From positions 1 to 31,337 of IMG/VR virus record IMGVR_UViG_3300031601_001447: DNA of 31,337 bases; one strand, given 5' to 3'. Under the pieces are notes generated by a model. It made no database searches. It saw only the letters and a program-made list of their open reading frames with translations, and was not told the DNA's origin. This stretch comes from a virus. Both the position numbers and the translations under genes were made by a program. Below, one piece after another: positions 2,534 to 23,910 of the stretch; position 1 is the stretch's first letter; each line of letters opens with the position of its first letter.

Positions 2534-2577
2534 TACACCGTCCCCCGATTAAACCGTTCCCCCAGAATTAAATCCAT
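2533..2577 (-). CDS. 14-codon micro-ORF linking tape measure and minor tail gene
   Basis: After the tape-measure stop, the sequence TAATG opens a frame reading M-D-L-I-L-G-E-R-F-N-R-G-T-V. Its stop is again TAATG, supplying the ATG of the minor tail gene. It fills exactly the 43-nt gap between the two larger genes. It also contains GGGGGAACGG and CGGGGGACGG stretches that could act as ribosome binding sites for the next gene. It may be a coupling leader whose translation carries ribosomes across the gap rather than a functional peptide. A chance open frame cannot be excluded. Confidence 0.35.
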   Translation of the reverse strand: MDLILGERFNRGTV

Positions 2578-5500
2578 TAGGCTGTCCCCCACTGATGATC
2601 CAATTCACCAATCGCTTTCTTAAATTCCATCGCTGCACTCCGCATTGCCGTTCTATCTCCGGTCATAACCATCGGGGCAAAAGTGACATGAAAAGTGTTT
2701 CCACCAGCGGTTGCTAATTGCGAGGAAGGTTGCGGCATCATTGCATTCAACTTACCAAAAAAACCAGCCCCGTACTTTGCCACCGCTTCCTTTTTGACGA
2801 CGAACTCCCCACGTTCGAGCATGGACGGGACCGTATCACCGCCCCCGTAACCGGGTATGGGACCACCTGACTGAAAAGACTTTGTTGAATTTATAAGCCT
2901 CCCATATTCATTATAATCATCCCAAGTCACAAGGCCAGTTGAGGAAATTTTCCTTATAGTTCTAAATACCTTTCTTGCTTTCTCCTCAACAGAGTCAAAA
3001 GCTAAACCCATACCTGAAAGTTTATCGATAAATTTTGAAACTATGTCAATTAGTTGTTGTATTTTATCCATAAGCCCCGTCGTAGTAGATCCGGAACCTT
3101 TAAAATCCACAGTGTAAGTGGCACCTTCTTCAGCCTTCTTTGTTGTAGAATCGAGCCACTCATTCACCTCTTTGACCTTTTCCCCAAGTGGTTTTGTGGT
3201 GGAGCCTTCGCCCTCGAATTTTGTGGTGACAGTGTGTGTTGATCTTGTATTAAGACCATTCACGCTGAGTTGGTATCTAATTGCAGCTTTAAGAGCGGCA
3301 AGCCCCCTCACAATAATCGTATGCGTTGAAGTGGTATCGACAATTTTCGCTAAGGCATCTAAGACCAATTTTATATTGGCGAGGGCTGCATCGACAACAA
3401 TGTCAATAACCGTTTCTGTAGCTGCTTTTTCTTGAATCTCGGTTAACCCTGTATCAATTGTTTCTATCTCAGTCTTTGCATCTTCACCACTAAGGCCGAT
3501 CTCTGGTTTTGGGTCTGGTGAAACTCCACTGAAAAAGTCCTCAACAATTTTATCTACGGCCACCACCGTTTCTTCAGCAGAATCAGCGTTGATATTGAGA
3601 ATATGTTCCTTTGCTGCTTCTACGCCAAATTTCTTAATCTCGCCTTCCGCTGTCTCCATAGCGGCCATAGCATCTATGGTATTAATGTCTAATTTGATGC
3701 TACCATCTGCAAGTGCCTTTTTTAGATTATTGCTGAAAGTCTTTATTTGAGTTTCGGTATACCCCAATTCAAGAAGGGCTTCTTTAGTATCTATTTTAAG
3801 TTTCTTCTCTTTTTCTACTTGCTCTTTAAGGTCCCTATCTTTGTCCTTTATATCCTTTAAATCTTTTTCAGGATCTGTTATATCAATGTCCAGTTTTGCC
3901 GGGTCTGCAAATTTGTCTCTAAGATTAGTGATCAGATCCCCAATCATTTTAAAAGCATTTTCGGCAGCAGTCTTCATGCTATCATAAGCAGCTTTTGAAC
4001 TATCCGTTGTCGCCTTATCTGCATCCTGTGCATCTTTCACTCTTTTCTTATGCCATTTTGCATTATACTCATCTTCAATTTTCTTCAGCCTTAGCATGGT
4101 ATTTAATCGTAGTTGCGCTAAAGCAAGCTCTCGGGTTGTTTCAGAAGCAAACCGCCCTACTCGGACTATGGCTACTTGTTTTAGCTCTTCATCTTTAGCC
4201 TTTTCAATTTCGACTTCTTTTTTGGCAGCTTGCATTGCCATGGTAAGGATTTGAGAATACGCCTCTCGTGCAATCTCAATTTTCTTCATTGCTGTTTTAA
4301 ATTCTGCGGCAGTACGTGCTTCATCAACCGCTTTAAACGCATCATTCAGCTTTTGTTTTGCATCCAACATTTCATCATTGTATCTTTGGCTTTCTGTCAT
4401 CTCCGCTTGCCTGATTATTTTCAAATCTTCTTGCAATTTCTCTTCAAGGGATTTGATTGAGTCAAGCAATTTTGTCCGTTCTTTTAGTCTCGCTTCTGCG
4501 GCTTTCTGTGCGGCCTTAGCTTCAGCTTCAGCCCTCTTTTCTGCGGCCTTCCTCGCTACTTCAACTTCCTTATCCTGATTCGCAACAAATTTATCAAACG
4601 CCGCTTGTTGAATGGCTTCTATTTGGTCTTGTAATTCATTTTCAATGACACCCATATCGGCAGCGTTTTTCCTGTAAGCCGAGACACGTCTTTGCATCGA
4701 GGCTATCATTTCAATAAACAATGCCCGATCTTTTGCGGCCAATTGATTATAAACTTGTTCAAAATGAAGGGGTAATTCAGCAAATACATCTTTTATTTGA
4801 GAGACTGCCTCACGGCTTGCGAGTCCAATTCTATTGAAATGATGAACGAACGCATTTTGCAAATCCTCAATCGCGTCCTTTTCGAGACCCATCGCTTCGA
4901 TTCTTTCTAACGCCTGATCAATGGTTATTTCACCTGTTTTAACAAGCGTCTTTAATGAGTGAATTTGACTCTCTTGTGCCTCGGTCAATTCTTTTTGGAG
5001 CTTTGTTGTTCGATCATACGCGTCACCTATACCAAGCAAATTATGGTAAATTATTGGCCACAACTCGCTGATCCTAACAAATTGAACTTCAGATCGACCC
5101 AATTCTACACGGTATCGTTCTGACGCCTTCGTAGCGTTGTCAAGGGCTTCCCATGCCCTTTTAGCTGCAATCTTATCCATAGCCTCGGTCAAGGCTTCTG
5201 TGGCCAAATCAGCTAAATCAAGCGCCTTAGTCATCCTCAGTATCTCTTTAGTGACTTCTGGGTATGTAACTTGAAATCGCTCTAAAACAGATTGGTATTC
5301 ACGTGAGCCTGCGTCTAACGCATTTAAGGAATCAGAGTATAAGTTAATCCCCTCTGCCATTCTTCTGGCTTCAACAGATGCCACCGCCAATTCATTCGCT
5401 AATTTTTCGTTGGACCCTGTAATTTGATCTAAGGCAATAAATAGAGCTGCAACAGCAGTCGCTATCGCTGTAATAGGATGGGACGCGATTAAAGCCCATA

Positions 5501-7004
5501 AGACAGTGAACGCAGCTCGTAATTTTCCTAATACCCCGGTCATTACAGTAAAACCTGCGGTTGCCGCACCCAAGCCAGTCGTTAAGAGTAAGAAATTAGA
5601 GGTTATCATTTTCAAAATTATCAACCCCTTAAAGCTGCTAACCAATAAACTCGTTGCCATTCGTAGTGCAGTAAAGGTCGCAACTAAAAGAGTTACCTTC
5701 ACAATGACGCCACCAACAGCACTTGTCGCAAACGCTTCGAAGGCGATAGTTACCCCTATTAATATATCTGTAAGAACGGCCAACGCCCCACCAACGCCTC
5801 CTTCACCGAGAGCAACTGCTACTAACTTTGCCCTATCCGCCAAATTCTTAAATTTAACCCCGAGACCTTCTTGCTGAGTTCCCGACATCTCCGCGGCAGT
5901 TCCCACTTCATAAACATTGTTTAAGGCCGTCTGGAACTCCCCACCAACATATCCCTTAACAAGAATAGCCGCCGCCTGAGCACCACGAAGCCCAAACAAT
6001 TCAAAGGCTTTAGCCATATTGACAGCATTGGTTTCTGAATTAAATAGAATTGCAGTTAGGTTTTCTAAGACCTTTTGATATCCCACAGTTCTCGGGTTTA
6101 CTTGATCTAATGCAACCCCCTGGGCCTCATACGCCTCCCTGAGCCTTGAATTAGGGGCAATCAGCCTGCTTAACACTTGCCTCATACCTGTACCGATCGT
6201 GCTGGCCCTGAGACCATTATTCGCAAGGGTCATCATGGTGGCCGCAGTCTCTTCAAGGGATACTCCCGCCTGGGCCGCTGTAGCACCAATATAATTGAAA
6301 GATATCCTGAGTTTGTCAATGGTGAGTTTTGACTTGTTGATCGCATTTGCCATTACATCGGAAACACGCCCAGCCTCCATAGTGTCAAGGCTAAATGCAC
6401 GGATGGTTGTGGTAAGAAGATCGGTCGTGAGCTTCATGTCGGACAAGGTTCCGGTAGCAAGGTTAGCCGTAGCCTGCATAGCGTCCATGGCTTCCCCGGC
6501 ATCAAACCCGGCCTGGCCTAACAACACCATGCCTTCTGATACTTCAGAGGTTGAAAACTTAGTGGTTCTTGCAACGTTCTTTATGGTCTCTCCCATAGCC
6601 ATCACTTCAGCATCCGTAGCCCCAGTAATGGCCTGAAGGTTTTTAAGGGCCTGGTCGTAATCAATAATTGCCTGGGTCCCGACCTTAAACGCATTGATAA
6701 CCATATAAATTGCTGAAGCTGCAATACCATAGGACGCTGTAACCTTGAACGCCGCCTTGACGCGCTCAAGACCACCGTGAACCCGGGATATTTGCTTGGT
6801 GAAGCCGTGATATTGCTCTGTGGCTTTTTTGGTGGCGGTAGTAGCTTTTCTGGTTGCAGTCGTTGCTCCAGTAGAAGCCTTAGTATTGGTATTCAATACT
6901 GTATTGACACCCTTCACTGCCTGCTTGATCTGCCCTAAAGCTGCTTTAAGGTTGGTTGCATCACCCGTAAACAACGTCCCAAGCGTCAAATTTTTATCAG
7001 CCAT
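2577..7004 (-). CDS. Tail tape measure protein (TP901 core type)
   Basis: This 1475-residue protein sets tail length and is ejected during DNA delivery. Residues ~110-340 hold a TP901-type tape-measure core, with 'TTKFSTSEVSEGMVLLGQAG' and 'GVSLEETAATMMTLANNG'. Residues ~415-530 contain several hydrophobic segments that could cross or perturb the host membrane. Residues ~790-1000 are Ala/Lys/Glu-rich and predicted coiled coil. The C-terminus (~1380-1475) has the common glycine motif 'GGPIPGYGGGDTVPSML' followed by 'RGEFVV'. At roughly 0.15 nm per residue, a family rule of thumb, the tail would be about 220 nm. The ATG overlaps the chaperone stop as TAATG. This is one of the surest calls in the window. 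Confidence 0.96.
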   Translation of the reverse strand: MADKNLTLGTLFTGDATNLKAALGQIKQAVKGVNTVLNTNTKASTGATTATRKATTATKKATEQYHGFTKQISRVHGGLERVKAAFKVTASYGIAASAIYMVINAFKVGTQAIIDYDQALKNLQAITGATDAEVMAMGETIKNVARTTKFSTSEVSEGMVLLGQAGFDAGEAMDAMQATANLATGTLSDMKLTTDLLTTTIRAFSLDTMEAGRVSDVMANAINKSKLTIDKLRISFNYIGATAAQAGVSLEETAATMMTLANNGLRASTIGTGMRQVLSRLIAPNSRLREAYEAQGVALDQVNPRTVGYQKVLENLTAILFNSETNAVNMAKAFELFGLRGAQAAAILVKGYVGGEFQTALNNVYEVGTAAEMSGTQQEGLGVKFKNLADRAKLVAVALGEGGVGGALAVLTDILIGVTIAFEAFATSAVGGVIVKVTLLVATFTALRMATSLLVSSFKGLIILKMITSNFLLLTTGLGAATAGFTVMTGVLGKLRAAFTVLWALIASHPITAIATAVAALFIALDQITGSNEKLANELAVASVEARRMAEGINLYSDSLNALDAGSREYQSVLERFQVTYPEVTKEILRMTKALDLADLATEALTEAMDKIAAKRAWEALDNATKASERYRVELGRSEVQFVRISELWPIIYHNLLGIGDAYDRTTKLQKELTEAQESQIHSLKTLVKTGEITIDQALERIEAMGLEKDAIEDLQNAFVHHFNRIGLASREAVSQIKDVFAELPLHFEQVYNQLAAKDRALFIEMIASMQRRVSAYRKNAADMGVIENELQDQIEAIQQAAFDKFVANQDKEVEVARKAAEKRAEAEAKAAQKAAEARLKERTKLLDSIKSLEEKLQEDLKIIRQAEMTESQRYNDEMLDAKQKLNDAFKAVDEARTAAEFKTAMKKIEIAREAYSQILTMAMQAAKKEVEIEKAKDEELKQVAIVRVGRFASETTRELALAQLRLNTMLRLKKIEDEYNAKWHKKRVKDAQDADKATTDSSKAAYDSMKTAAENAFKMIGDLITNLRDKFADPAKLDIDITDPEKDLKDIKDKDRDLKEQVEKEKKLKIDTKEALLELGYTETQIKTFSNNLKKALADGSIKLDINTIDAMAAMETAEGEIKKFGVEAAKEHILNINADSAEETVVAVDKIVEDFFSGVSPDPKPEIGLSGEDAKTEIETIDTGLTEIQEKAATETVIDIVVDAALANIKLVLDALAKIVDTTSTHTIIVRGLAALKAAIRYQLSVNGLNTRSTHTVTTKFEGEGSTTKPLGEKVKEVNEWLDSTTKKAEEGATYTVDFKGSGSTTTGLMDKIQQLIDIVSKFIDKLSGMGLAFDSVEEKARKVFRTIRKISSTGLVTWDDYNEYGRLINSTKSFQSGGPIPGYGGGDTVPSMLERGEFVVKKEAVAKYGAGFFGKLNAMMPQPSSQLATAGGNTFHVTFAPMVMTGDRTAMRSAAMEFKKAIGELDHQWGTA

Positions 7005-7411
7005 TATCCTGCCCTCGTTTTACCGCCCATGGGTTTACTCTCCTGAGCCCAAATCCTGTGCCGGTTCATCATTTGCTTTGTTATTTGTTCTCTTTCAACC
7101 TTCGGCATATCCTTGTACGTTTCCGGGTCCCCAAACACGAACCCGCCCTTTGGCTTTTTAGTCTGTTTCGGTGCCGGGGCAGCCTTCTCTTCAATTTTTG
7201 CTCCATGAATCTGTGCCTCAAACTTCAGCCTATCACCAAGCCTCTTCTCCGAATGCTCGAACAGTACAATCAACTGTCCGAAGGTGCATCCTCCGTCTCG
7301 GAAGGACTTTTTGTAGAAGTCGTCAAGTCGGTATCCATATCGCTCGCAGACTGCGGTAACGGCCTCTCCGATGGAAACAGCGTCATCACTTTCTCGAAGA
7401 GGCTCTTGAAG
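7004..7411 (-). CDS. Tail assembly chaperone, -1 frameshift extension (lambda gpGT-like 'T' part)
   Basis: This is the downstream half of a two-frame tail assembly chaperone. Read in the -1 frame relative to the upstream gene, it is open from 7411 to the stop at 7004 (135 codons). The translation is plainly protein-like, with 'VSIGEAVTAVCERYGYRLDD' then 'FYKKSFRDGGCTFGQLIVLF'. Any independent start has to be a TTG at 7273 with a weak ribosome site, and would discard about 46 well-formed codons. The better model is synthesis as a fusion after a -1 slip at A AAA AAC (7417-7411), giving about 249 residues in all. The C-terminus is basic and proline-rich ('KAAPAPKQTKKPKGG'). The stop overlaps the tape-measure ATG as TAATG. 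The fusion product is expected to bind the tape measure and recruit tube subunits, as lambda gpGT does. Confidence 0.85.
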   Translation of the reverse strand, partial: LQEPLRESDDAVSIGEAVTAVCERYGYRLDDFYKKSFRDGGCTFGQLIVLFEHSEKRLGDRLKFEAQIHGAKIEEKAAPAPKQTKKPKGGFVFGDPETYKDMPKVEREQITKQMMNRHRIWAQESKPMGGKTRAG

Positions 7412-7752
7412 TTTTTTGCTACAATACCGTAATTTGTCTCATAAACCACTTCGGCTATCGAAGCCGCCTGAAGGTTGGAGACCTCTTCTAAGAGCTTGTC
7501 ATCCTCATCTGTTACCATGGTTAAGATACGGCCAAGGTTTTCCTTCACTAATTCCACAATAAACGCCACCAGTGCCATATCCCCGCCTTCTTCTTTGGCA
7601 AACTGCGCCGCAATTGCCGTGGATATTAAATCAGTCAATTTCAACTGATCCGACATGGACAAGGGATAAATTTTAATCTTCCGCATTTCACGGATACCAA
7701 TCTCGATCTCCGTGATCTGCGGATTGATCTTTTTCTGTTCATTCTCCGACAT
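7270..7752 (-). CDS. Tail assembly chaperone, unshifted product (lambda gpG-like)
   Basis: This is a 160-residue acidic, helical protein lying between the tail tube and the tape measure, where siphophages encode the G/GT chaperones. The ATG at 7752 has a good GGAG 7 nt upstream. Residues 1-110 resemble a phage tail-assembly-chaperone domain: an N-terminal beta segment ('EIEIGIREMRKIKIYPLS') followed by helices. Codons 112-114 (A-K-N) are encoded by GC-A-AAA-AAC, a slippery heptamer. Past it, the 0-frame tail is low-complexity Ser/Thr/Pro/Glu ('PLPQSASDMDTDLTTSTKSP') up to the TGA at 7270. That contrast supports two products, a shorter abundant one and a longer shifted one. Confidence 0.85.
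   Translation of the reverse strand: MSENEQKKINPQITEIEIGIREMRKIKIYPLSMSDQLKLTDLISTAIAAQFAKEEGGDMALVAFIVELVKENLGRILTMVTDEDDKLLEEVSNLQAASIAEVVYETNYGIVAKNFKSLFEKVMTLFPSERPLPQSASDMDTDLTTSTKSPSETEDAPSDS
7411..7417 (-). promoter_or_regulatory. Slippery heptamer A AAA AAC for programmed -1 ribosomal frameshift
   Basis: On the minus strand the heptamer AAAAAAC is in the X XXY YYZ phase of the upstream chaperone frame (GCA AAA AAC, codons 112-114). The -1 frame has a TGA about 30 nt upstream of the site and no stop for 135 codons after it, so the site lies in the permitted overlap. Downstream bases could form a modest imperfect hairpin (AAGA/TCTT, then TTC/GAG with a one-base bulge). The heptamer class is established in viral frameshifting; use here is inferred. 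Confidence 0.82.
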
Positions 7753-7808: not shown

Positions 7809-8393
7809 TTACGCCCAAATGATATGACCAAGGGCCATGTCGTCCCAAATCGCATCGCCGTCCGTAACGTCACTTGACGCATTTTTGGACTCAAATGAAA
7901 TCGGAACAGCGGCAGCATCCTCAGCCTGTAAATCCATCTCCACGTTTGCTGACACTTGCGCTCTCGGGAAGATAATGGTCATGGTATTGGTCGCATTAGG
8001 ATAGGTGTATACCGCCTCCATCCGCACGTAATCAGGTGCAGAACGGCTACCTAACGTAACCTCACCAGAATGGGCAGTGTAACTATCCGCACTGGTGTCA
8101 GTACCATGAGCCAGAGCCATGTGCTCCGGAGTAATCTCTTTAAACGCACACTCCAGCATAGCTCCTTCCCTGATAGGCGTGGTGTAATCCTCAATCAGAG
8201 GAAATCCTGACTCCAGCTTGTACCAATCGGTATTCCCGGTGAATTTAGTATTCGCCAGTGCTCCAATCGAATCACTGGAAGACAGCTCAGCTCCGGGTTT
8301 AGTAATATTGTCAGACGAACTACCAACTCGTATTTGCGCTAATCCAAGCGCAATGGTACTCGTATCTGTTGCTACGGGACCTGATCTTGCCAT
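7809..8393 (-). CDS. Major tail (tube) protein
   Basis: This 194-residue protein polymerises into the tail tube. The sequence is Ser/Thr-rich and beta-strand-rich. Its C-terminal half, containing 'TMTIIFPRAQVSANVEMDLQ' and then 'PISFESKNASS', matches the usual tail-tube pattern of a long beta hairpin and closing strands. The position is standard: downstream of the terminator and upstream of the chaperone and tape measure. A strong Shine-Dalgarno (AAAGGAG) precedes the ATG. It is also the only gene flanked on both sides by non-coding gaps over 50 nt, one with a dyad and one with a hairpin. That fits separate control of an abundantly needed subunit. Confidence 0.88.
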   Translation of the reverse strand: MARSGPVATDTSTIALGLAQIRVGSSSDNITKPGAELSSSDSIGALANTKFTGNTDWYKLESGFPLIEDYTTPIREGAMLECAFKEITPEHMALAHGTDTSADSYTAHSGEVTLGSRSAPDYVRMEAVYTYPNATNTMTIIFPRAQVSANVEMDLQAEDAAAVPISFESKNASSDVTDGDAIWDDMALGHIIWA

Positions 8394-10627: not shown

Positions 10628-10791
10628 ATATGCCTCGGATCGGGCGGCATAAAGGTAGTTGGCTTAATTTCCCATTCAATTCTCGTTACCTTTTCCATTG
10701 TCCGCCCGCAATTCTCACACCAATAATCATCAAGTTTGTCATCTTCAATTTCATTTTTGTAATGACATTTTGGACACACCCAGATCATCAT
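10621..10791 (-). CDS. 56-residue zinc-ribbon protein
   Basis: This short gene occupies the space between the radical SAM gene and the next ORF. The ATG at 10791 overlaps the radical SAM stop as ATGA, and a second ATG follows immediately. The protein begins 'MMIWVCPKCHYKNEIED' and continues 'DYWCENCGRTMEKV', giving a CPxC...CxNC zinc ribbon within 30 residues. A basic and Pro-rich tail ends at the TGA at 10623-10621, overlapping the downstream ATG by 7 nt. Its N-terminus resembles that of the other cassette zinc ribbon at 16395-16712 ('MIYWVCKQCGRSM'). Function is unknown; metal or nucleic-acid binding is plausible. Confidence 0.78.
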   Translation of the reverse strand: MMIWVCPKCHYKNEIEDDKLDDYWCENCGRTMEKVTRIEWEIKPTTFMPPDPRHIC

Positions 10792-11993
10792 CTCAAAAGC
10801 TCTCTCGGTTTATATTCAACTTCAAGCATTTCCCGCCACGCAACAATTTCCTCAGCATTCAATTCTTCTGTTTCGATATTCGCTTCATATTGCCCGGGCG
10901 TACCTTTATACCAACCTGGCTGGCCGTTATAGTTGAATTTGATTCCCCACTTGGTCGGATCAGCGAATATCCTTGACCCCGGCATCGGTTGAAAGATTGA
11001 AATATCGATATCATCCGGTTGTGCTTCTTCAATCCAATCTGCAGTCTCAACCACCGTTTCATTTGTTTCCCCGGGGAGTCCGACAATCAGGAACGCCTTC
11101 GCCCTGATTCCATGATTGTGAAGTTTCTCAACGGCCCGGGTGTTCATGATTCTGGTAGTTCCTTTCATGTTCTTTTTGAGGACTTCATCAGACCCGCTTT
11201 CAATGCCTATGCCAACTTCCACAACTCCGAGCTTACTGAGTAATTCACACGTTTCATTATCAATCAGGTTACTCCTTCCAAGGCACCGAAATAGATATTT
11301 CCCGCCAATCTTATCAACTATCTTGCCTAATCGCTTTTTGCTGGCAATAAACACGTCGTCAAAAATCATAAACGCTTCGTATCCATATCTCTCATGGATA
11401 TGCTCTATTTCATCTACTGTTCTCTCTGCTGACTGCATTTGGAAGTTGCTGTCAATCTTACCACAGAATGAGCAGTGATATGGGCACCCCCGGGTAGTCA
11501 TAATGGGCGTAGAGGGAACACCATCGATCTCATAGTGATAATCGCGTATCGGCAATACATCCCGGTCAGGGAAAGGAATATCGTTAATATCTATTTGTAG
11601 CGGTACGTTGAAATTCGTTCCCAATATCTGAGACAAAAATAACATCAGTCCTGTCTCACCCTGCCCTCGCACTACATGAGTGAATCCATGTCCGAGACAC
11701 TCCTGAGATTTATGCGTAGCGTGAGCCCCTCCAGCAATAACTTTTTTACCCATGTGATTAAATTTCTTTGCCAACTTAAATGCTTCTGCCCTTTGTGGCG
11801 TAGTGAGTGAAATCCCAACAACATCAGATTCTACCATGTCTGGTGTATGGCCAAGTCCCATGTCAAGGCACTGAACATTTAAGCCGAATCTTTTTAAGAA
11901 CGCTGATAGATATAGAATTCCCAGGGGCGGAAATACCGCCTGGTCTAACAGGAACTTGGAACTTGGAAATATTAATGTGATATCAGGTTTCAT
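10788..11993 (-). CDS. B12-binding-type radical SAM protein
   Basis: A 401-residue protein starting at the ATG at 11993, which has GGAG 8 nt upstream and overlaps the methyltransferase stop as ATGA. Residues 1-125 resemble a cobalamin-binding N-terminal domain: 'PPLGILYLSAFLKR' early, 'DVVGISLTT' near 57, 'KKVIAGGAHAT' near 83, 'VVRGQGE' near 107. The radical SAM cluster motif CxxxCxxC is C170, C174, C177 within 'TTRGCPYHCSFCG'. Later motifs 'EVGIGIESGSDEVLKK' and 'LIVGLPGETNETV' are typical of the superfamily. Such proteins methylate, epimerise or rearrange unreactive carbons in natural-product and lipid pathways. The substrate here is unknown; a sugar or lipid-linked glycan is inferred from context. 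Confidence 0.88.
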   Translation of the reverse strand: MKPDITLIFPSSKFLLDQAVFPPLGILYLSAFLKRFGLNVQCLDMGLGHTPDMVESDVVGISLTTPQRAEAFKLAKKFNHMGKKVIAGGAHATHKSQECLGHGFTHVVRGQGETGLMLFLSQILGTNFNVPLQIDINDIPFPDRDVLPIRDYHYEIDGVPSTPIMTTRGCPYHCSFCGKIDSNFQMQSAERTVDEIEHIHERYGYEAFMIFDDVFIASKKRLGKIVDKIGGKYLFRCLGRSNLIDNETCELLSKLGVVEVGIGIESGSDEVLKKNMKGTTRIMNTRAVEKLHNHGIRAKAFLIVGLPGETNETVVETADWIEEAQPDDIDISIFQPMPGSRIFADPTKWGIKFNYNGQPGWYKGTPGQYEANIETEELNAEEIVAWREMLEVEYKPRELLR

Positions 11994-12529
11994 TTTGCCA
12001 TCTCCTGGCGTACCCAAACCATCATTCCAAGCGATCCCTCGATGCCAGTAAATAACTCATCCACCGCTTGCTTAACCCCATAAACACCTTCAGGGTAATA
12101 ATCATGAAAGAACATTAGTCCGCCGGGACGTAATAATTTCAAGCTGTTTTCTGCATCAGTCTTCACTGCTTCGTAAGTATGTAAACCATCGATAAACACT
12201 AAATCAAATGTTTCCTTTATCTTTGGAACGGCCAACCCTGACCGATTGATGATAATGTGAATATTTTTATATCCATTGATGTTCTTAAGAAATCCATTGA
12301 GAGACGTAAACACATCGCTTTGATCTTGCGTAGGCGGCAACCCTTTAAAGGTGTCTACTGCATAAACCTTCTCAGCGGTCTCAGCCATGGCGATGGTGGA
12401 CCTTCCGAACCAGCTTCCGATCTCCAGACACACCTTGCCTTTGGCGTGGTCTTGAAGTATCTGGCACTCTTCAAAGGTCACATGACCGTCTTTAACCTGC
12501 TGATATGTTAGACGCTGTACTTTTTCCAT
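11990..12529 (-). CDS. Class I SAM methyltransferase (Methyltransf_24-like)
   Basis: A 179-residue protein with the glycine-rich SAM-binding motif 'CLEIGSWFGRST' (34-45). The motif 'FIDGLHTYEAVKTD' (112-125), then 'LLRPGGLMFFHDY', is characteristic of small CmcI/TylF-like and Methyltransf_24-like enzymes that often act on sugars or polyketides. The catalytic substrate is not evident. The start overlaps the upstream GT8-like gene by 22 nt, and the ribosome site is weak (GGAG only 2 nt away). It lies immediately before a radical SAM gene and forms a coupled pair with it. Confidence 0.85.
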   Translation of the reverse strand: MEKVQRLTYQQVKDGHVTFEECQILQDHAKGKVCLEIGSWFGRSTIAMAETAEKVYAVDTFKGLPPTQDQSDVFTSLNGFLKNINGYKNIHIIINRSGLAVPKIKETFDLVFIDGLHTYEAVKTDAENSLKLLRPGGLMFFHDYYPEGVYGVKQAVDELFTGIEGSLGMMVWVRQEMAK

Positions 12530-13248
12530 AGCTCCAGGTACTCCGGTTTGATATGGCCTTCAAGCTCCGTGAGAGGCTTGTAAATGTAGTGAATTATTTC
12601 ATGGTCAAACATCTCAGCAACGCTCAACTGCGGAACGATCCTGTTGTAGCTCTGCGGAATCTCGTAAAGCTCATCCCCAAACAGCTTCGTAAAAAGGTGC
12701 ATGGGTTCCGCCGGCTTTGCCTGATCATGTTTTGCATCGAGTAACCATTTATAGGTCTCGGAATTCAGGTACTTCTTGCCAACAATGAATAACCCCCAGT
12801 TCCAATCTTTCCAACCTTTGGTCTGCTCTGTGGTTCCAATATCGCACTGGATGTTCAGGAGTCCGGATATGTCCTTCAAGCAGAGCATATCCACATCGAT
12901 GAATATCACCTTGTCGTATCCACGCAGATTAAAGACTTCCATTCGCCAGAAATAAGGATTGGATTTCGAAGAAATTACATATTTGGAAACATCTACAGTT
13001 CTAAATTCAACCGAGGGATACAGCTCTTTAAGCTGTTGTTTTTCTTTCCAACTCAGGGCAGTATCAAAAATCAAGCGGGACGGATAATCCTTTTCCTTTT
13101 TTTTGATTGCTGCCGTATCGTTAGTTCCGGTAAAACAAATAAACGGGATGTCTACGATCGAAGGACTGTTGCTTTTTATACTGTTCAGAAACGCCCTCAA
13201 GTATGGCAAAAAGCTCCTTGTTACCGTTGTTGCGAATGCTGTTTTCAT
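12508..13248 (-). CDS. GT8-like glycosyltransferase
   Basis: A 246-residue protein with features of retaining GT8 enzymes (glycogenin, LPS galactosyltransferases). 'YDKVIFIDVDMLCLKDI' gives the metal-binding DxD at 118-120, the segment 'WNWGLFIVGK' (149-158) matches the acceptor-side loop, and a late 'HYIYKPL' replaces the usual HxxGxxKPW. It transfers a sugar from a nucleotide donor in the cytoplasm. GGAGG lies before the ATG, which overlaps the methyltransferase stop as ATGA. The imperfect C-terminal motif makes the donor hard to predict. Confidence 0.8.
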   Translation of the reverse strand: MKTAFATTVTRSFLPYLRAFLNSIKSNSPSIVDIPFICFTGTNDTAAIKKKEKDYPSRLIFDTALSWKEKQQLKELYPSVEFRTVDVSKYVISSKSNPYFWRMEVFNLRGYDKVIFIDVDMLCLKDISGLLNIQCDIGTTEQTKGWKDWNWGLFIVGKKYLNSETYKWLLDAKHDQAKPAEPMHLFTKLFGDELYEIPQSYNRIVPQLSVAEMFDHEIIHYIYKPLTELEGHIKPEYLELWKKYSV

Positions 13249-13982
13249 AATCCACCCTCCAATTCTTTTCGATAAAATTCAATGGCCTCTTGCGGATCAG
13301 GGAAACCGATATCCGTGTCATTCACAATGCGAACCGTAATATCTTCTTTCCACATAAACCCCAATTGCCCCCAGTCTAATGGTTCATAGTGCTTGAGCTT
13401 ATCCTCAAAATTAAAGACCATCATTTCAATGGCACTTACTTTCGGAAATGCCCACAACACTTTATCCTTAACGGTGAAAATCCATCTATGAGGGAATGCC
13501 CCCCTGAAGTGACCAATCAACCCGCATCGCTCCAAACCCTCGTCTGATATCTGCCGCCCGCGTCCTAATTCAAACATCTTGTTGGGGATAGCAATATATC
13601 CCTCATTAGCCACTAAAGGTAGCCTTTCAAGAAATCGTTGCGGATTTGCCAAATGCTCAAGCATATGTGTGCAAATCACGAAATCATATTTTCCGTTTTT
13701 GGCTACCTCTTGTCTCAGGTAAGACCACGTTAAATCATCCTCGCAATCATTTTGAATTATTTGCGAGTCCCATATCTCAGGATACGGCTTATACATTCCC
13801 GGATATCGCTTTTCCCAATCAGCAGGTGTTACCAGGTCCACATAGGTTGTTACGAACTTTGAGGCCCACGGTCTATGGACACCACCAATGTCAAGGCACC
13901 TGTGATAGCCCTGGGCTTCCAGGTACTCTAAGATACGTTTATCGCCCATTGGCTGGGTTTCTATTTGAGCATCATAAATCAA
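13245..13982 (-). CDS. Class I SAM methyltransferase (TTG start)
   Basis: A 245-residue methyltransferase. 'RCLDIGGVHRPW' (28-39) is the SAM-binding loop and 'DFVICTHMLEHL' (100-111) is the motif-IV strand of Methyltransf_11-like enzymes. The start codon is TTG at 13982, which overlaps the preceding GT4 stop as TTGA and has GGAGG 7 nt upstream. No ATG with a comparable ribosome site exists before the SAM motif. It probably O-methylates a sugar or acts as part of a glycan-capping step; the substrate is unknown. Confidence 0.8.
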   Translation of the reverse strand: MIYDAQIETQPMGDKRILEYLEAQGYHRCLDIGGVHRPWASKFVTTYVDLVTPADWEKRYPGMYKPYPEIWDSQIIQNDCEDDLTWSYLRQEVAKNGKYDFVICTHMLEHLANPQRFLERLPLVANEGYIAIPNKMFELGRGRQISDEGLERCGLIGHFRGAFPHRWIFTVKDKVLWAFPKVSAIEMMVFNFEDKLKHYEPLDWGQLGFMWKEDITVRIVNDTDIGFPDPQEAIEFYRKELEGGL

Positions 13983-15055
13983 AACGGCACCTCCACGGTT
14001 CCAAACCGTTCACCCGCGGCCACTCTTTCAAATAACCATTCGTACCGCCTGGCCATTAAATCCGCCGTGAATCGCTTTTCAAACTGTTCCCGGCAGTCAA
14101 TCGGATCGATCTCGTGAATACGATTAATTAACGGGACGCCCACGCTGAGAATTTCAGACAGGTTATTGGAATCGTAATAATTCAGGATAAATCCGTGCTT
14201 GCCGTGTTCGATAATTTTGTCCACGACGATTGAACAATCCTGATTAATCCGGTTCATTCCAACAACTGGGGTTCCCATGGCAAGGCTTTCGGCAAGGACA
14301 ATCCCGAAATGTTCCTTCCAGGTATTGTCATTACTGTAAATCAAACACTTGGCTTTGCTCATAATTTCGTATTTCATGGCATCGTCTACGCCGCGCACCC
14401 AAAAGATATTCTTATTGTCAATATGTGGCGCCACTTCATTCCAAAACGTCCCGGTATTATATGGCGGCCCCATAATGACCAGCTTAATCCCGGCAGCTCT
14501 TGCAAGCTCAATTCCCAGGTGAGGCGCCTTCCCACCTTCCAGCTTTCCGATCCAGCAGGCGTAATCTTCCTTGTCCGGTTGGAATTGGTATAGGTTTTTC
14601 GGCAACCCGTAATGAATCATAGTGGTCTCAATGTTCTGATCAACAAAATCGTTCTGAAGTACCTGAGAGTATGTCACTACATTGAACGGTTTTTTCTTCA
14701 ATTGCCACCAACTATGACACCAAACATTCCAAACCAATTCTACATAAGGGAACCGTTCCATCACTTCCGGGTCCCAGCCTTCACCAAAATATCCGCAAAA
14801 ATAAATATCAGGGCTCAGAGCGGTCCTGGCTATATATTCTTTCACTGCTTCATAATGAGTATCACGTTCGTTCGTGAGCGCACCTACTGGCACATAATCC
14901 GTGGCTGCAGGGACATCCGTGCCTTCCCGGGCAAAGAGATAGACTTCGTGGCCGAGCTTAATTAACTCTTGAGTAAGGTAGCCTAAAATACGTTCGCCCC
15001 CGTATGCGTGACCCTTGCCGAATGGAAACGAATTGCCTGTTAGAATAATTTTCAT
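13979..15055 (-). CDS. GT4 glycosyltransferase (GT-B fold)
   Basis: A 358-residue protein. The N-terminal half has a glycine-rich acceptor-side loop ('FPFGKGHAYGGERI', about 10-23), and the second half has the GT4 signature 'EHFGIVLAESLAMGTPVVG' (248-266) with the E-x7-E pair. Length is normal for the family. AAGGAG lies 5 nt before the ATG, and the start overlaps the previous gene as ATGA. It likely extends an oligosaccharide using an NDP-sugar at the cytoplasmic face. A C-terminal tail of about 20 residues after the last helix is not characteristic. Confidence 0.9.
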   Translation of the reverse strand: MKIILTGNSFPFGKGHAYGGERILGYLTQELIKLGHEVYLFAREGTDVPAATDYVPVGALTNERDTHYEAVKEYIARTALSPDIYFCGYFGEGWDPEVMERFPYVELVWNVWCHSWWQLKKKPFNVVTYSQVLQNDFVDQNIETTMIHYGLPKNLYQFQPDKEDYACWIGKLEGGKAPHLGIELARAAGIKLVIMGPPYNTGTFWNEVAPHIDNKNIFWVRGVDDAMKYEIMSKAKCLIYSNDNTWKEHFGIVLAESLAMGTPVVGMNRINQDCSIVVDKIIEHGKHGFILNYYDSNNLSEILSVGVPLINRIHEIDPIDCREQFEKRFTADLMARRYEWLFERVAAGERFGTVEVPF

Positions 15056-15891
15056 TTCAACTCCTTGGCCCCCACGTCACATGGGTAGCTGATATGATTG
15101 ATATACTCGACGACCTTCTTATAAGGCCATTCGTTGAGTTGTTTCAGGACCCCGGAACGATAACTGGACCATGCGAAGATTAAATATCGCTGAGATTGAA
15201 TAGGTGGATAAAACACCCGGTTCTGTCCACTGGTCATAAGCCCGAAGATATGTTCAAGCCATGGGTTTTTGGGCTCACCTTCAGCGCCGTATTTTCCGTA
15301 AAGATATTCTGAACTCCGCAGGCATTTGACGATCTCCGTGTAATCAATGTTTTTTCGTTTGGTCAAGAAGAATCGCGTACTGGCCCACCAGTACGATTTA
15401 TACCGTCCATCCGTAGCAGGCATCGGGGAATATTGACTTGGGTAGCTGATATAGTCAAACCGATCCTCGTCGAGCCACTGAAGCCATTCCTTGATTACAT
15501 TTTTGTCATTAATGAAGGCGTTCATATCTCCATCAAAATGAACCAGGTAATCCCCGCGTGTTAACACCATGGCATTCAAAAAGTTAATATCATTCCATTT
15601 GGGTTCATATTTCCCCAAATACTTCTCCGTGTGCCGATTGAAAACCAGATTGTCTATGATCCCACTTGCCTGTTGATTTAGTAACCAATCCTGTGTTTCT
15701 TTCGGGAGCGGATCGTGGACATCAATAAATACGGTCGTTTCAATCTCATGACCTTCGAAGAACTTGACCTTGTTGATTATACCCTCGGTGAAGAAATCGA
15801 GCGAACGGGTCCCGTTGAGCATAGTTCCCTGTTTCGTGGACTGCTCCATGAACCCGGGGCGTGTGTCTAAGTTTATGGCGATGCTAATCAT
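15052..15891 (-). CDS. GT-A-type glycosyltransferase
   Basis: A 279-residue protein with a DxD motif in 'GDYLVHFDGDMNAF' (DGD at 120-122), after an N-terminal Rossmann-like half ('ETTVFIDVHDPLP', 'FLNAMVLTRGD'). No close family is recognised from the C-terminal half, which has several aromatic motifs ('KSYWWASTRFFLTKR'). The ATG overlaps the small upstream ORF as ATGA, with GAGGA 7 nt before it. Function as a sugar transferase is inferred from the DxD and the cassette context. Confidence 0.75.
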   Translation of the reverse strand: MISIAINLDTRPGFMEQSTKQGTMLNGTRSLDFFTEGIINKVKFFEGHEIETTVFIDVHDPLPKETQDWLLNQQASGIIDNLVFNRHTEKYLGKYEPKWNDINFLNAMVLTRGDYLVHFDGDMNAFINDKNVIKEWLQWLDEDRFDYISYPSQYSPMPATDGRYKSYWWASTRFFLTKRKNIDYTEIVKCLRSSEYLYGKYGAEGEPKNPWLEHIFGLMTSGQNRVFYPPIQSQRYLIFAWSSYRSGVLKQLNEWPYKKVVEYINHISYPCDVGAKELK

Positions 15892-16190
15892 GATTTAATC
15901 CTCAATCCTATGCCGCGCCGATTACACCGGAGCTGTTTTAACCAAAATGCTTTCCTCACAAATAGAATGCACTTTGGAGGACCAAACGAAACAAATAATC
16001 CGAATCTAAGGAATTCTCTTGCAGCCACCGCATTGAGAATCATTTGAGAAACGATTTCTGACTCCATTTCCCCTTGGGCATAGTTTCTCACTGTTACTGT
16101 CGTACAGGAAACGAAGGTTGTACCGGAATAATTAGTGGGATTACTATCGGCAGTTCCGGAACAGTCATCACTGGTGTTATACAAGATCAT
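15888..16190 (-). CDS. Hypothetical protein in glycan cassette
   Basis: A 100-residue ORF whose ATG at 16190 has GGAGG 7 nt upstream, overlapping the end of the previous small gene. A GTG at 16196 is too close to that site. The N-terminal part is Ser/Thr/Asn-rich ('NTSDDCSGTADSNPTNYSGT'), like a glycosylated or exposed beta stretch. The middle is helical ('MESEIVSQMILNAVAAREFL') and the C-terminus is basic. No family is recognised. Its ATGA link to the following transferase supports it as a real gene. Confidence 0.5.
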   Translation of the reverse strand: MILYNTSDDCSGTADSNPTNYSGTTFVSCTTVTVRNYAQGEMESEIVSQMILNAVAAREFLRFGLFVSFGPPKCILFVRKAFWLKQLRCNRRGIGLRIKS

Positions 16191-16192
16191 CC

Positions 16193-16402
16193 TCACACCT
16201 CCGCTTGTTCTAACCCATGGTCTGACATATCTTCAAACATGGTACAGCGACAATTCTCGTCGATGTCGATTGATTTGAAAGTGCAATAAAGGCCCTCGAA
16301 TTTTCTCCCCCTGTGGACATTCATCCCATTAAACCTACAGGCCATAGTCCTGCATTCATAAATCGTTGTATCGTTTAAAAAAGCCCTTGGAAATTCAGCC
16401 AT
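16193..16402 (-). CDS. Small Cys-rich hypothetical protein
   Basis: A 69-residue protein with five cysteines ('IYECRTMACRFNGM', 'YCTFKSIDIDENCRCTMFE'), a spacing that could bind a metal ion. The start overlaps the upstream zinc-ribbon gene by 8 nt (ATGGCTGA), so translation is probably coupled. No known domain is recognised. It forms a run of three small proteins with the genes on either side, between two glycosyltransferases. Confidence 0.55.
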   Translation of the reverse strand: MAEFPRAFLNDTTIYECRTMACRFNGMNVHRGRKFEGLYCTFKSIDIDENCRCTMFEDMSDHGLEQAEV

Positions 16403-16712
16403 TGCCTCGTACCTCCACCATGATCGCGTCCTGGAATTGTCTCAGCGTTCGACCTTCCACTACAAGTTTTGGCCACCCTGATCCAGTTTCAACCTTCTTG
16501 AGCGTAACCATGGCAGGTTCACCTGATACCGGGTCCCATCTCACATCCCCGGGGAATTCAAAGGTCTCGCCCTCCGGAATATTCAGACCCATCTTGACCG
16601 CATCCTCGTCACTGATGTTTTCGATTGCATCCATGTGGTCAAAATAACAGCACATTGGTTTTTCATCGGCCCGCATTGATCTTCCACATTGCTTACACAC
16701 CCAGTAAATCAT
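16395..16712 (-). CDS. Zinc-ribbon-like small protein
   Basis: A 105-residue protein starting at the ATG at 16712, which overlaps the GT stop as ATGA and has GGAGG 5 nt upstream. A slightly earlier start would remove that spacing. The N-terminus 'MIYWVCKQCGRSM' followed by 'KPMCCYFDHM' gives a CxxC plus CC metal-site pattern. The rest is a mixed domain ('EFPGDVRWDPVSGEPAM', 'LRQFQDAIMVEVRG') that I do not recognise. The N-terminal resemblance to the 56-residue protein at 10621-10791 suggests that both come from one family. Confidence 0.6.
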   Translation of the reverse strand: MIYWVCKQCGRSMRADEKPMCCYFDHMDAIENISDEDAVKMGLNIPEGETFEFPGDVRWDPVSGEPAMVTLKKVETGSGWPKLVVEGRTLRQFQDAIMVEVRGNG

Positions 16713-17281
16713 AGTACCCTCCATTCATGGCCGTAGTTCTTCCATTTATGCCACTTCCAAACCTGATACTTCCGGTCTTGAAGATGGTAAACATAGTTCC
16801 CTGGCATATAGTACGCTTTGTATCCAGCATTCATAATTCTCTTGTAATAATCGCCGTCACAGTGCATTCCTTTTGCTTGGTTGAAGCCGCCTACATCTTC
16901 CCACGCTTTCTTGTGTGTCAAAATCATGTGGCCATTGTCGCAACCACCACCTTCTACGGTTGCGGTCCCATGCTCTTTCCAGACCTTCTCTGCCCACCTA
17001 ATATGGTCAACCAGATCGTCACTTCCTGCCGGACAACCGGGGGACTTTTGAGATCCGGACGCACAACGATTAGTAACGGCAGTTATCCAGCCTGCCTGGT
17101 GGCCAAGTTTTGTTGCTGCCGCTAAGAACGCCTCATACCAGTTTGGGTTACATAAAAACAGATCATGGTCCATTATCAGTACCCAATCATGCGCGTGTTC
17201 CATGGCCCGGTTATACGCAAACCCCACCTTCTTGCACGGCTCGTATGGGATTACAGTTTCAATAAATAGTCTTTCGGTCAT
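16709..17281 (-). CDS. Compact GT2-type glycosyltransferase
   Basis: A 190-residue protein with 'DWVLIMDHDLFLCNPNWYEA' (DHD at 38-40). The 'AWEDVGGFNQ...MHCDGDYYKRI' motif follows, the usual GT2/GT27 galactosyltransferase-like acceptor-side region in which a glycine-rich loop precedes acidic residues. It lacks the first ~40 residues of a full GT-A domain, including the strand before the nucleotide-binding loop. It may therefore be a naturally short form or a 5'-truncated one. The ATG overlaps the kinase stop as ATGA. Sugar transfer is likely; donor unknown. Confidence 0.8.
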   Translation of the reverse strand: MTERLFIETVIPYEPCKKVGFAYNRAMEHAHDWVLIMDHDLFLCNPNWYEAFLAAATKLGHQAGWITAVTNRCASGSQKSPGCPAGSDDLVDHIRWAEKVWKEHGTATVEGGGCDNGHMILTHKKAWEDVGGFNQAKGMHCDGDYYKRIMNAGYKAYYMPGNYVYHLQDRKYQVWKWHKWKNYGHEWRVL

Positions 17282-17763
17282 ATCATTTCCCTTAATTGTT
17301 TTTCGTCACTTTCATAATTTGGTCGCCAGAATGCTTTCCGAATATCTTTAACCGGGGGAATGCCAGATATAGATGCTAACTGAAAATCGATCAGATAAAT
17401 TTTTTCATCAAGATCCATAATGTTTCTAAGTTTCCCTTTAAATACCAGATCATTATGAACGATATCGGCCTTATTTAAAACACTTACGATATGGTCAATT
17501 TGCTTAGATGAAACGCTTTTCGTTTCTTCTCCTACATAAGACATTACAATAAAATTCTTGCCGTATTTTTTGACCACAGGCGCTATGTCATATTTAGCCA
17601 ATATCTCTAATGCCTTGACTTCATGTGCCACAATCGGCTCGATATCGCCTGGGTAGTATGGTTTCAAAAATGAATTAACCAGTTTGGTTGTTGAGGAATC
17701 AAGATCGATAGTCTTCAATATGTTCCCCTCTAATCGTTCAATGTTTGCGGTGTTTCCTCTCAT
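17278..17763 (-). CDS. Minimal kinase of the APH/choline-kinase or RIO-like fold
   Basis: Only 161 residues long, yet it has the core catalytic features of the kinase-like superfamily. A possible Lys is present in 'ILKTID' (K17), and the helix-C-type Glu is in 'HEVKALEIL' (E48). The catalytic 'IVHNDLVFKGKLRN' has HND at 103-105 and N114, and 'IYLIDFQLA' has the metal-binding DFQ at 126-128. Such small kinases phosphorylate sugars, Kdo/heptose residues or small alcohols such as choline. The shared cassette with an HxGH cytidylyltransferase and a LicD-like gene makes an alcohol or sugar substrate more likely than protein. Ribosome site AGGTG precedes the ATG, which overlaps the upstream methyltransferase as ATGA. 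Confidence 0.75.
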   Translation of the reverse strand: MRGNTANIERLEGNILKTIDLDSSTTKLVNSFLKPYYPGDIEPIVAHEVKALEILAKYDIAPVVKKYGKNFIVMSYVGEETKSVSSKQIDHIVSVLNKADIVHNDLVFKGKLRNIMDLDEKIYLIDFQLASISGIPPVKDIRKAFWRPNYESDEKQLREMI

Positions 17764-18401
17764 CTATAACACCTGAATATGTTCCGTGGATACCAGCCGT
17801 CCTTTACCGTACCGAGATCATCAATTTGATAATCTGTATTGTCTTTCAGGATGTTGAAGACGTCTTGGCTTGATGATATATTGGCGCTCTTGGCCATAGC
17901 GTCTCCCTGGGTGGTTGAGAAGAACAGGCAATCGGTTTTCTGTGACACAATCGAAATGCACCCATACGCATCTTCGCCCGCTTGCTTTAACAACCACATC
18001 CACTGATCGAACCATATAATGAAGTCATATCGGTCTAATCCGGATATTAATTCCTTGTCAATAATTGAATGAACAAACTTGGCGCCGGTCTTGAATTCCA
18101 TCTCTATTGCTGTCGCAAGGTCTATCATGGCCTTGTCGTAATCAATCCCGGTCATACTTGCCCCAACAGATTGAAGGCGAAAGGTAATCCCACCCGCCGA
18201 GCAACCCAGGTCAAGGCCCTGCTTGCCTTTTACGTCAATTTCTTCCAGGATTCTATCTACCCGCAAGCTGGTATTCTTCCTGTGGCTCGGCAGAGACATG
18301 AAAGGGATGTCATGGTAAAGTTTGCCTTGATCCAAGGAAGATCCCCCGATTTTTTCTACGCCTATTTTTGATGCAAGTTTTTTCAGGTGTTCCTTAGCCA
18401 T
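17760..18401 (-). CDS. Class I SAM methyltransferase
   Basis: A 213-residue protein starting at the ATG at 18401, with GGAG 8 nt upstream and an 8-nt overlap with the upstream transferase. A longer frame from 18614 exists, but its first 71 residues read as an out-of-frame translation of the neighbouring gene. 'GLDLGCSAGGITFRL' (62-76) is the SAM-binding loop and 'MTGIDYDKAMIDLA' the acidic-loop strand. 'YDFIIWFDQWMWLL' is the motif-IV region. It probably acts on a sugar of the decorated glycan. It is directly upstream of the small kinase. Confidence 0.85.
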   Translation of the reverse strand: MAKEHLKKLASKIGVEKIGGSSLDQGKLYHDIPFMSLPSHRKNTSLRVDRILEEIDVKGKQGLDLGCSAGGITFRLQSVGASMTGIDYDKAMIDLATAIEMEFKTGAKFVHSIIDKELISGLDRYDFIIWFDQWMWLLKQAGEDAYGCISIVSQKTDCLFFSTTQGDAMAKSANISSSQDVFNILKDNTDYQIDDLGTVKDGWYPRNIFRCYR

Positions 18402-19122
18402 TCCATCTACTCCAATGGTTATTGTTAGACGCATGCTCCATGTAGTACGCCTGGTCAGGGGACACGTTATCCGGGTCCACATACCAATCCAAGTGCTTGG
18501 CCGTATAGGGGGCCAGAGTACGTATGCCATGCTGCAACCTTCTCCACTCCGTACCGGACCGATACATGCCGAAAGTGGTATCAATAGGGGCCTTAATATA
18601 TCGGATAGGATCATGACCCAAATTTATGGTCCTAATAGCACTGCGGTGGAATTTGTAATGCAGACCCTTCTTGCCGCTTAACAGTATTTCCTTCTCTGGG
18701 TAATAGCCTGGAATATCATCTATGCGCAACATTGGACCGACCACCGCTACGTTTGTCATCTTTCCCAGAAGAGTTGAGTAGACGGCAAGAATGTTCCCGT
18801 CAGCAGGGTCCAAAGCAATATCTGGGTCCGTGACCACATAGTTGGAGCTGCCGTGGGTTGTAAAATAGTCCTTAATGCTCTGTGTAACCATCAGGTCGTT
18901 CCGCTTGGCATTGCGCCTTTTTCCAGTGTTGGGTGAGGACCACCGATACACCTTGGTTCCCGCTGACTCCAACATACGTAGGTACTCCACAGTTGGCCCG
19001 TATGAACTGCCCTGGTCTAACATCACTATTATGAATGGCGTATCAATGGTATCGTGATACGACTGGATAGACTCCTGTAGCATGGTCAATCGGTCACACG
19101 TTACGATAAAAATAGGGATCAT
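18394..19122 (-). CDS. GT-A-type glycosyltransferase
   Basis: A 242-residue protein beginning with a canonical GT-A first strand ('MIPIFIVTCDRLTMLQESIQ'). It has the segment 'NYVVTDPDIALDP', whose DPD at 99-101 is the DxD-type metal site. Late aromatic and charged motifs ('DNVSPDQAYYMEHASNN') are in keeping with a GT2-like enzyme. The ATG overlaps the methyltransferase stop as ATGA, with GAGG 7 nt upstream. Specificity is unknown. Confidence 0.78.
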   Translation of the reverse strand: MIPIFIVTCDRLTMLQESIQSYHDTIDTPFIIVMLDQGSSYGPTVEYLRMLESAGTKVYRWSSPNTGKRRNAKRNDLMVTQSIKDYFTTHGSSNYVVTDPDIALDPADGNILAVYSTLLGKMTNVAVVGPMLRIDDIPGYYPEKEILLSGKKGLHYKFHRSAIRTINLGHDPIRYIKAPIDTTFGMYRSGTEWRRLQHGIRTLAPYTAKHLDWYVDPDNVSPDQAYYMEHASNNNHWSRWNG

Positions 19123-19724
19123 CCCATGTCCTCTTTCAATATCAGCCCTGTTCCCTGTCCGAATGAGTATTCCTTGTCAACTCTTTTTGTATAATAACCT
19201 GTGAGTGTAATAAAAGTTCTATCCTGTATTCTACTCTTTGCAGCCTTAGCCATTAATTCATCCCAGAATCCCCTAATGCAGTCTTCAAATACTATATCGT
19301 GTATGGCAATAATATTTTTTGCTAAGGGGGCATAAATTTTATAATCCTCTTTTAGCACCTCATAGGTATGTTTGGCATCCAAATAAACAAGATGAACATC
19401 CCGCCCATTCAGTATTTTCATCAGCTCCACCATTGTTGCTGGATTTCTACTGTTCCCTACTATATCAGGACAGCGTGCTGCGCTTATATCAACCCCGATA
19501 TGCTCATAGCCCAAAATCTCTTCATAATATCTCTTCTGTTTGCCAAACCCAATACCAACTTCAACTATCATAGGTTTTTTTATTTCCCTGTTTCTGAAAT
19601 AGGTATCTATAAACTCAAGGTAAGCCTGCCATTCCCCCATACTCTGGGATGGCATTGTAGGATGCTGTCGTGTGCATTCTGTTGTCGTCCACGGTGGCAT
19701 AAGATTGTTTATTTTACCTAACAT
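19119..19724 (-). CDS. Class I SAM methyltransferase (CmcI-like)
   Basis: A 201-residue protein. 'MIVEVGIGFGKQKRYY' (52-67) is the SAM loop, 'HIGVDISAARCPDIVG' follows, and 'LVYLDAKHTYEVLKEDYKI' with 'IIAIHDI' mirrors the Methyltransf_24 and CmcI pattern seen in the other cassette enzyme at 11990. A GTG at 19727 is an equally close alternative start; the ATG at 19724 forms TGATG with the upstream stop and has GAGG 8 nt before it. It is immediately downstream of a truncated radical SAM gene. The substrate is not shown. Confidence 0.83.
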   Translation of the reverse strand: MLGKINNLMPPWTTTECTRQHPTMPSQSMGEWQAYLEFIDTYFRNREIKKPMIVEVGIGFGKQKRYYEEILGYEHIGVDISAARCPDIVGNSRNPATMVELMKILNGRDVHLVYLDAKHTYEVLKEDYKIYAPLAKNIIAIHDIVFEDCIRGFWDELMAKAAKSRIQDRTFITLTGYYTKRVDKEYSFGQGTGLILKEDMG

Positions 19725-20836: not shown

Positions 20837-21513
20837 TTGAACCCCTCCTGTGCTCGTCTATGAAAGTTTTCTTTGTCTGCGGCCAAAAGATGTCTTGATC
20901 CTGTGTAGACCGTATCCTTCGCTGATTTATGGTTGCCCTTCCCTCCCCAGTGATTGTGCCACACCACAGAAGTAGGACAATACTTTACCCTGTTCATTGA
21001 TTTACTTTTGCTGAACAGCTCAGTGTCGGCACTAAAATGTTTATAAATCTCATTATAGAAGATGCCTTTGAGACTTGTCTTTATGTAATTCCGTGAAATT
21101 AGGCCGGCGCAAGCATTCCGTCCATTCTGTATCCCATCCTTGAATGTAACTAATCCTTCTGCGTTTGGAAACGTTTGCTGCATACATTTCATGGCTTCTT
21201 TGAGCCATCCTTTTTCCACTTCCATGTCATCGGACAAATACACGAAATATGGTTCTTCACTAATAGAACAACACCTATTTGTAGCTTTGACGCATTCTAC
21301 CGTTGAGGGGAACATTTCTATATCTTCTTCATAAAACTGGCTCAATGATAATTCTTTTAATGTAGCCTCGTCTTTTTCATGGTCAATTATAATGTGCAAT
21401 CTATAATTTTCGTACATAGTGCGATCTTTAATCCATGTGAGTGCTTTAATGAGCTGTTTTGGCCGCCTGAAAGTTACAACACACACCCCGACCGCTGGTT
21501 CATTTAATTCCAT
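20833..21513 (-). CDS. GT2-type glycosyltransferase
   Basis: A 226-residue protein with 'VGVCVVTFRRPKQLIKALTW' as the first GT-A strand and helix, 'LHIIIDHEKDEATLKEL' as the second, and 'PYFVYLSDDMEVEKGWLKEA' with SDDM at 94-97 as the metal site. A late 'NHWGGKGNHKSAK' is typical of the acceptor loop in some GT2 enzymes. The ATG overlaps the SDR stop by 14 nt, with AGGA close by. It likely adds a sugar to a growing chain in the host cytoplasm. Confidence 0.83.
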   Translation of the reverse strand: MELNEPAVGVCVVTFRRPKQLIKALTWIKDRTMYENYRLHIIIDHEKDEATLKELSLSQFYEEDIEMFPSTVECVKATNRCCSISEEPYFVYLSDDMEVEKGWLKEAMKCMQQTFPNAEGLVTFKDGIQNGRNACAGLISRNYIKTSLKGIFYNEIYKHFSADTELFSKSKSMNRVKYCPTSVVWHNHWGGKGNHKSAKDTVYTGSRHLLAADKENFHRRAQEGFK

Positions 21514-23115: not shown

Positions 23116-23118
23116 AAC

Positions 23119-23893: not shown

Positions 23894-23910
23894 GATATCT
23901 CCCGTAATTT

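Follow-up and report, generated by a model that had tools for sequence, protein, structure and literature searches.

The function and wide conservation of the tail assembly chaperones G and GT are described in a review (PMC5009743), which cites Xu, Hendrix and Duda (2004) for lambda G/GT as a conserved phage class. According to the same review, the slip site of Escherichia coli dnaX is A_AAA_AAG, and A_AAA_AAC is less shift-prone than this heptamer in E. coli (PMC5009743). With high confidence, the locus analysed here is a G/GT cistron of the lambda type that encodes tail assembly chaperones, with a predicted −1 slip on A AAA AAC that is accompanied by a stem-loop. A −1 frameshifted tail chaperone had already been proposed in the initial annotation, and this proposal is supported by the architecture of the locus, the phase of the heptamer, the codon positions, the weak or absent initiation signals of T, and the family matches of G relatives.

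The analysed stretch of DNA (the window) comprises 31,337 bases and is a viral contig from IMG/VR. The genes treated here are all encoded on the minus strand, and the chaperone cistron has the following surroundings and parts:

7809–8393, minus strand: tail tube protein, 194 aa (weak match to Pfam Phage_TTP_17, below the cut-off)
7270–7752, minus strand: G, tail assembly chaperone, 160 aa (open reading frame with Shine-Dalgarno sequence, homologues in 52 loci, phrog_1442 matches in relatives)
7007–7411, minus strand: T domain, 135 codons in the −1 frame after the slip (family alignment, excess of third-position substitutions)
2577–7004, minus strand: tape measure protein, 1475 aa (Pfam PhageMin_Tail, 1.2e-34; phrog_1533, 1.5e-52)

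The gene order is tube, G, T in the −1 frame, and tape measure, so that the G/T cistron lies between the tube and tape measure genes. The tube protein also has a virion structural match (phrog_2729, 2.8e-4), and its place 5′ of G is kept in relatives. The start codon of the tape measure gene (ATG at 7004) is overlapped by the GT stop codon (TAA, 7006–7004). Elsewhere in the window, the tail genes are separated from the major capsid gene (30135–31289, Phage_cap_E) by a region of roughly 16 kb that holds genes for sugars and modification (10788–26645, minus strand). This region carries several glycosyltransferases, a GDP-mannose dehydratase-like epimerase, LicD, methyltransferases, and two radical SAM proteins, one of which has a B12-binding domain; its targets may be the virion, the DNA, or the host surface. 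A homing endonuclease-like protein is encoded near the capsid gene (27771–28736, minus strand); it contains three NUMOD3 motifs along with an HTH domain.

To avoid selection by the feature under test, relatives were collected via the N-terminal domain of the tape measure protein and via the tube protein rather than via the chaperone, and the interval from tube to tape measure was then inspected. This resulted in 52 distinct loci (prefix L), which include the window and three loci first found through G. In 51 of these, a script detected a G ORF together with an overlapping −1 frame that stays open up to the tape measure start; the same overlap was seen upon inspection of the last one (L060). 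T is always in the −1 frame relative to G. Counts are given for 42 representatives with T proteins less than 75% identical. Two further loci, L102 and L103, show the same −1 overlap and the same heptamer. A phage collection gave no match, neither by DNA search with the region 9000–6000 nor by tblastn with G and T from the window. A genome scan with G returned no relative, and one with the tape measure protein returned a single contig from a deltaproteobacterial metagenome-assembled genome, which is L103 (JAFDFZ010000191.1). This contig carries the same tape measure gene, G/T overlap, heptamer, and hairpin, and its binning may be a hint to a possible host.

The start of G is preceded by a well-matching Shine-Dalgarno sequence (AAGGAG, 7765–7760). 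The AlphaFold model of G has a mean pLDDT of 68 and consists of a beta hairpin followed by helices, with disorder past residue 128. Beyond the slip site, G had been described as degenerating into Ser/Thr/Pro-rich sequence; this part is Ser/Thr-rich, and residues 129–160 have a pLDDT below 50 and are predicted to be disordered. A comparison with G/GT families, which had been suggested as a check, relates G to annotated chaperones through its relatives, with weaker support from fold comparison and marginal support for T. Tail assembly chaperone family phrog_1442 is matched by 15 of 47 G relatives (best E-value 1.7e-7), whereas neither G nor T from the window matches a family model at E ≤ 0.001 (G to phrog_1442, E = 0.013). 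Six T relatives match phrog_10474, a family of unknown function, and no functionally named family covers T. Using Foldseek, the G model retrieved predicted chaperones; among these are proteins annotated as tail assembly chaperones or as frameshift G, such as that of Xylella phage Sano (frameshift protein G, E = 4.9e-3). One T relative shows weak matches (E 0.01–0.1) to annotated tail assembly chaperones of Streptomyces phages, whose genes occupy the same position. When G and T were compared with the PDB by sequence and by fold, no clear relative emerged.

The putative frameshift signal consists of three elements:

7411–7417, minus strand: slippery heptamer A AAA AAC, in phase (same or equivalent early in the overlap in 40 of 42 representatives)
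7404–7410, minus strand: 7-nt spacer UUCAAGA between slippery site and stem
7362–7403, minus strand: stem-loop with 5′ arm GCCTCTTCGA (7403–7394), a 22-nt loop, and 3′ arm TCGGAGAGGC (7371–7362), forming 10 pairs

The heptamer is read in the phase GC A|AAA|AAC, G codons 112–114 being GCA AAA AAC, exactly where the initial annotation had placed it, and is the only in-phase XXXYYYZ motif within the G/T overlap of the window. Since about 0.4 in-phase heptamers are expected by chance in an overlap of 56 codons (estimated from their density in the body of G), this single occurrence is by itself only mildly surprising. It is the family comparison which takes the heptamer far beyond chance. Of the 42 representatives, 40 carry an in-phase XXXYYYZ motif in the first 90 nt of the overlap, whereas the remaining two phases give 10 and 4. 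When A6 heptamers were preferred in cases of choice, the 42 representatives carried AAAAAAC (31), AAAAAAA (6), AAAAAAT, GGGAAAA, GGGAAAG, and CCCTTTA (one each), or none (one); from background codon use, A-AAA-AAC would be predicted at only about 5% of xKN sites. The representative without a canonical heptamer (L044) counts against the model, and some others are unusual (e.g. CCCTTTA). In L044 (3397–3551), the overlap is kept without an A6 run (ACA ATA AAA GTG) and the usual hairpin is present; in L051 (3376–3548) and L052 (3263–3432), it is kept with C CCT TTA/C. These A6-less relatives could reveal the minimum needs of a slip site. The lower shift-proneness of A_AAA_AAC compared to A_AAA_AAG in E. 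coli is a further point against the model; in a host that reads the site as E. coli does, it would fit a need for low amounts of GT, and perhaps for a hairpin.

The stem-loop had been overlooked in the initial annotation and strengthens the case for frameshifting. In the window, the stretch folds with −19.6 kcal/mol (z = −2.0), and the 60 nt 3′ of the site have a mean z of −2.5 across 41 representatives. For 39 of the 42 representatives, the best helix that begins 3–11 nt after the site exceeds 95% of shuffles. About 7 of the 42 have no clear hairpin at the homologous codons; helices picked in L027, L034, L037, L051, L053, and L094 are located off these codons and were not counted as this hairpin. 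Covariation was analysed for 32 representatives with a common hairpin geometry. In this alignment, 91.2% of the cells are paired, a value that is inflated because the rows were picked for shared geometry; the compensatory changes, found in 8 of 11 pairs, are less easily put down to the choice of rows. The covariation score is 0.397, compared to 0.230 for shuffled and at most 0.136 for slid alignments, and none of 500 shuffles attains the observed values. A tree was computed from those parts of the G and tape measure sequences that lie outside the hairpin; on this tree, at least 5, 9, and 10 changes of pair state took place at columns 15–71, 20–66, and 21–65, respectively. The held-out loci L102 and L103 match the hairpin model at 3.4e-12 and 2.6e-14, scores that partly reflect primary sequence, with L103 being a close relative of L055. 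The family thus has what is expected of a hairpin-stimulated −1 frameshift element, a stem-loop located 5–9 nt 3′ of the heptamer which shows compensatory changes. A search of the whole window against Rfam gave no match at the gathering score; the single weak match, mir-21, was below the cut-off and was taken as chance. A conserved pseudoknot pairing between the loop and downstream sequence was not found, the best candidate being about 72% paired compared to 91% for the stem.

It might be argued that the complementarity is a by-product of two conserved peptides and not a selected RNA structure, given that both arms lie within codons of conserved residues (EPL and GEA in the T frame) and that two pairs never vary. 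We consider this improbable, as the arms change jointly, to GACCTGGTC/GACCAGGTC in L042 and to ACCTCGTGG/CCACGAGGT in L093, with residues being altered and pairs being kept, and as pairing falls to 36–55% when the partner is slid by 1–3 columns. A selected stem-loop is the preferred explanation.

The −1 frame runs without a stop codon from 7438 to 7007 (last upstream stop TGA at 7441), and the initial count of 135 codons up to the tape measure start is exact when taken from the slip to the TAA at 7006–7004. The predicted fusion protein GT has 249 aa, 114 from G and 135 from T. A clear domain had been seen in this frame. In the family alignment, the conserved residues of T include the blocks around GEAV, YRLEDFYRKSFREGG, and FGDP, and the T frame is under selection within the overlap. 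Among close pairs, substitutions in T-only codons number 136/84/260 at positions 1/2/3. Within the overlap, they number 38/32/80 in the T frame, which corresponds to 32/80/41 in the G frame. Substitutions in the overlap thus concentrate on third positions of the T frame, and the −1 product is therefore under selection; the pattern indicates that selection acts mainly on this product while the G tail drifts.

Independent translation of T, perhaps coupled to the G stop codon, would have to begin at the following codon or at a later one:

7271–7273, minus strand: TTG in the T frame, the only nearby candidate start for an independent T, without Shine-Dalgarno sequence

This TTG overlaps the G stop codon (TTGA), and in several relatives, an ATG follows the end of G at a distance of no more than 20 nt. 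Nevertheless, we consider a separate T gene very unlikely. Initiation at the TTG would discard much of the T domain, as had been pointed out, namely the first 55 of 144 open codons with most of the conserved GEAV...DFYKKSFRDGG block, so that the blocks around GEAV and YRLEDFYRKSFREGG are dropped. The T-frame selection on the conserved block 5′ of the TTG is left unexplained by separate initiation. A well-placed start of T in homologues would have spoken against a fusion. T-frame starts occur at no conserved position, lying anywhere between −166 and more than +90 with respect to the G stop, and three representatives (L038, L044, L081) have no start codon at all between the opening of the T frame and 90 nt past the G stop. 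A Shine-Dalgarno match of at least 5 bases precedes 31 of 42 G starts but only 2 of 42 T starts; at the latter, there is no match in 29 cases, 4 bases in 11, and 5 bases in 2.

Even less probable is a fusion generated by transcriptional slippage. The site is an A6 run; however, documented bacterial cases involve tracts of about 9 A or T (PMC5009743). Moreover, the phase of the heptamer with C at its last position is kept in relatives, some of which carry GGGAAAA, GGGAAAG, or CCCTTTA instead, and a hairpin at a spacing of 5–7 nt fits ribosomal frameshifting. That two overlapping frames within one operon result from a former single gene, split by a frameshift mutation or by a sequencing error, is ruled out for practical purposes by independent contigs: 52 distinct loci, as well as L102 and L103, share this −1 overlap at the same place.

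For the frameshifted G/GT cistron, we thus envisage that most ribosomes would finish translation at the stop codon of G (160 aa), while a minority would undergo −1 tandem slippage at A AAA AAC and produce GT (249 aa). The stem-loop, 7 nt 3′ of the heptamer, probably helps the slip. By analogy to lambda, the G part may bind the tape measure protein and the T part may recruit tail tube subunits.

The finding belongs to the well-known lambda-like G/GT class and leaves the known function, tail length assembly, unchanged. New within this class are a chaperone family in which no functionally named PHROGs or Pfam model describes the T part, and a covarying frameshift hairpin that has no Rfam counterpart. 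It is a phage frameshift element with a putative stimulatory hairpin, which is unusually well conserved and backed by covariation over dozens of lineages. The annotation is also corrected: the initial concern that the fusion would be missed upon reading two genes is justified, as gene callers would give an 89-aa fragment or nothing instead of the predicted 249-aa protein. There is about an even chance that this uncultured tailed-phage lineage, undescribed within our searches, has a hairpin-dependent G/GT switch, in which a covarying stem-loop within two overlapping frames sets the chaperone ratio on A_AAA_AAC, a weak heptamer in E. coli, and that such chaperones can be found by searching for the element as an RNA signature.

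Streptomyces phages Coruscant and Belfort (Stanwilliamsviridae) also have two chaperone genes between the major tail protein and the tape measure, the second in a −1 relation and with weak similarity to T (E 0.01–0.1 only); their overlap, however, is short (46–58 nt) and lacks A_AAA_AAC.

In E. coli dnaX, an SD-like stimulator is located upstream of the slip site, whereas in the present family such a sequence is not enriched 5′ of the heptamer over control windows. Cassettes of the dnaX type resemble the locus in having an A-rich heptamer followed by a stem-loop (PMC5009743); the two heptamers differ in their last base.

Features expected of a lambda-like G/GT pair were found in its position, in the overlapping second ORF in the −1 frame without an efficient start, in the conserved in-phase heptamer, and, through G relatives, in the relation to annotated chaperones. 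Further hallmarks of the class are a low ratio of GT to G and the absence of both proteins from virions. Lambda G/GT shares with the locus the order tube, G, T, tape measure, the −1 frameshift near the end of G, and a short and a long product with a common N-terminus. The proteins of the window differ in having no detectable sequence match, and here a heptamer A_AAA_AAC with a covarying stem-loop is kept across the family.
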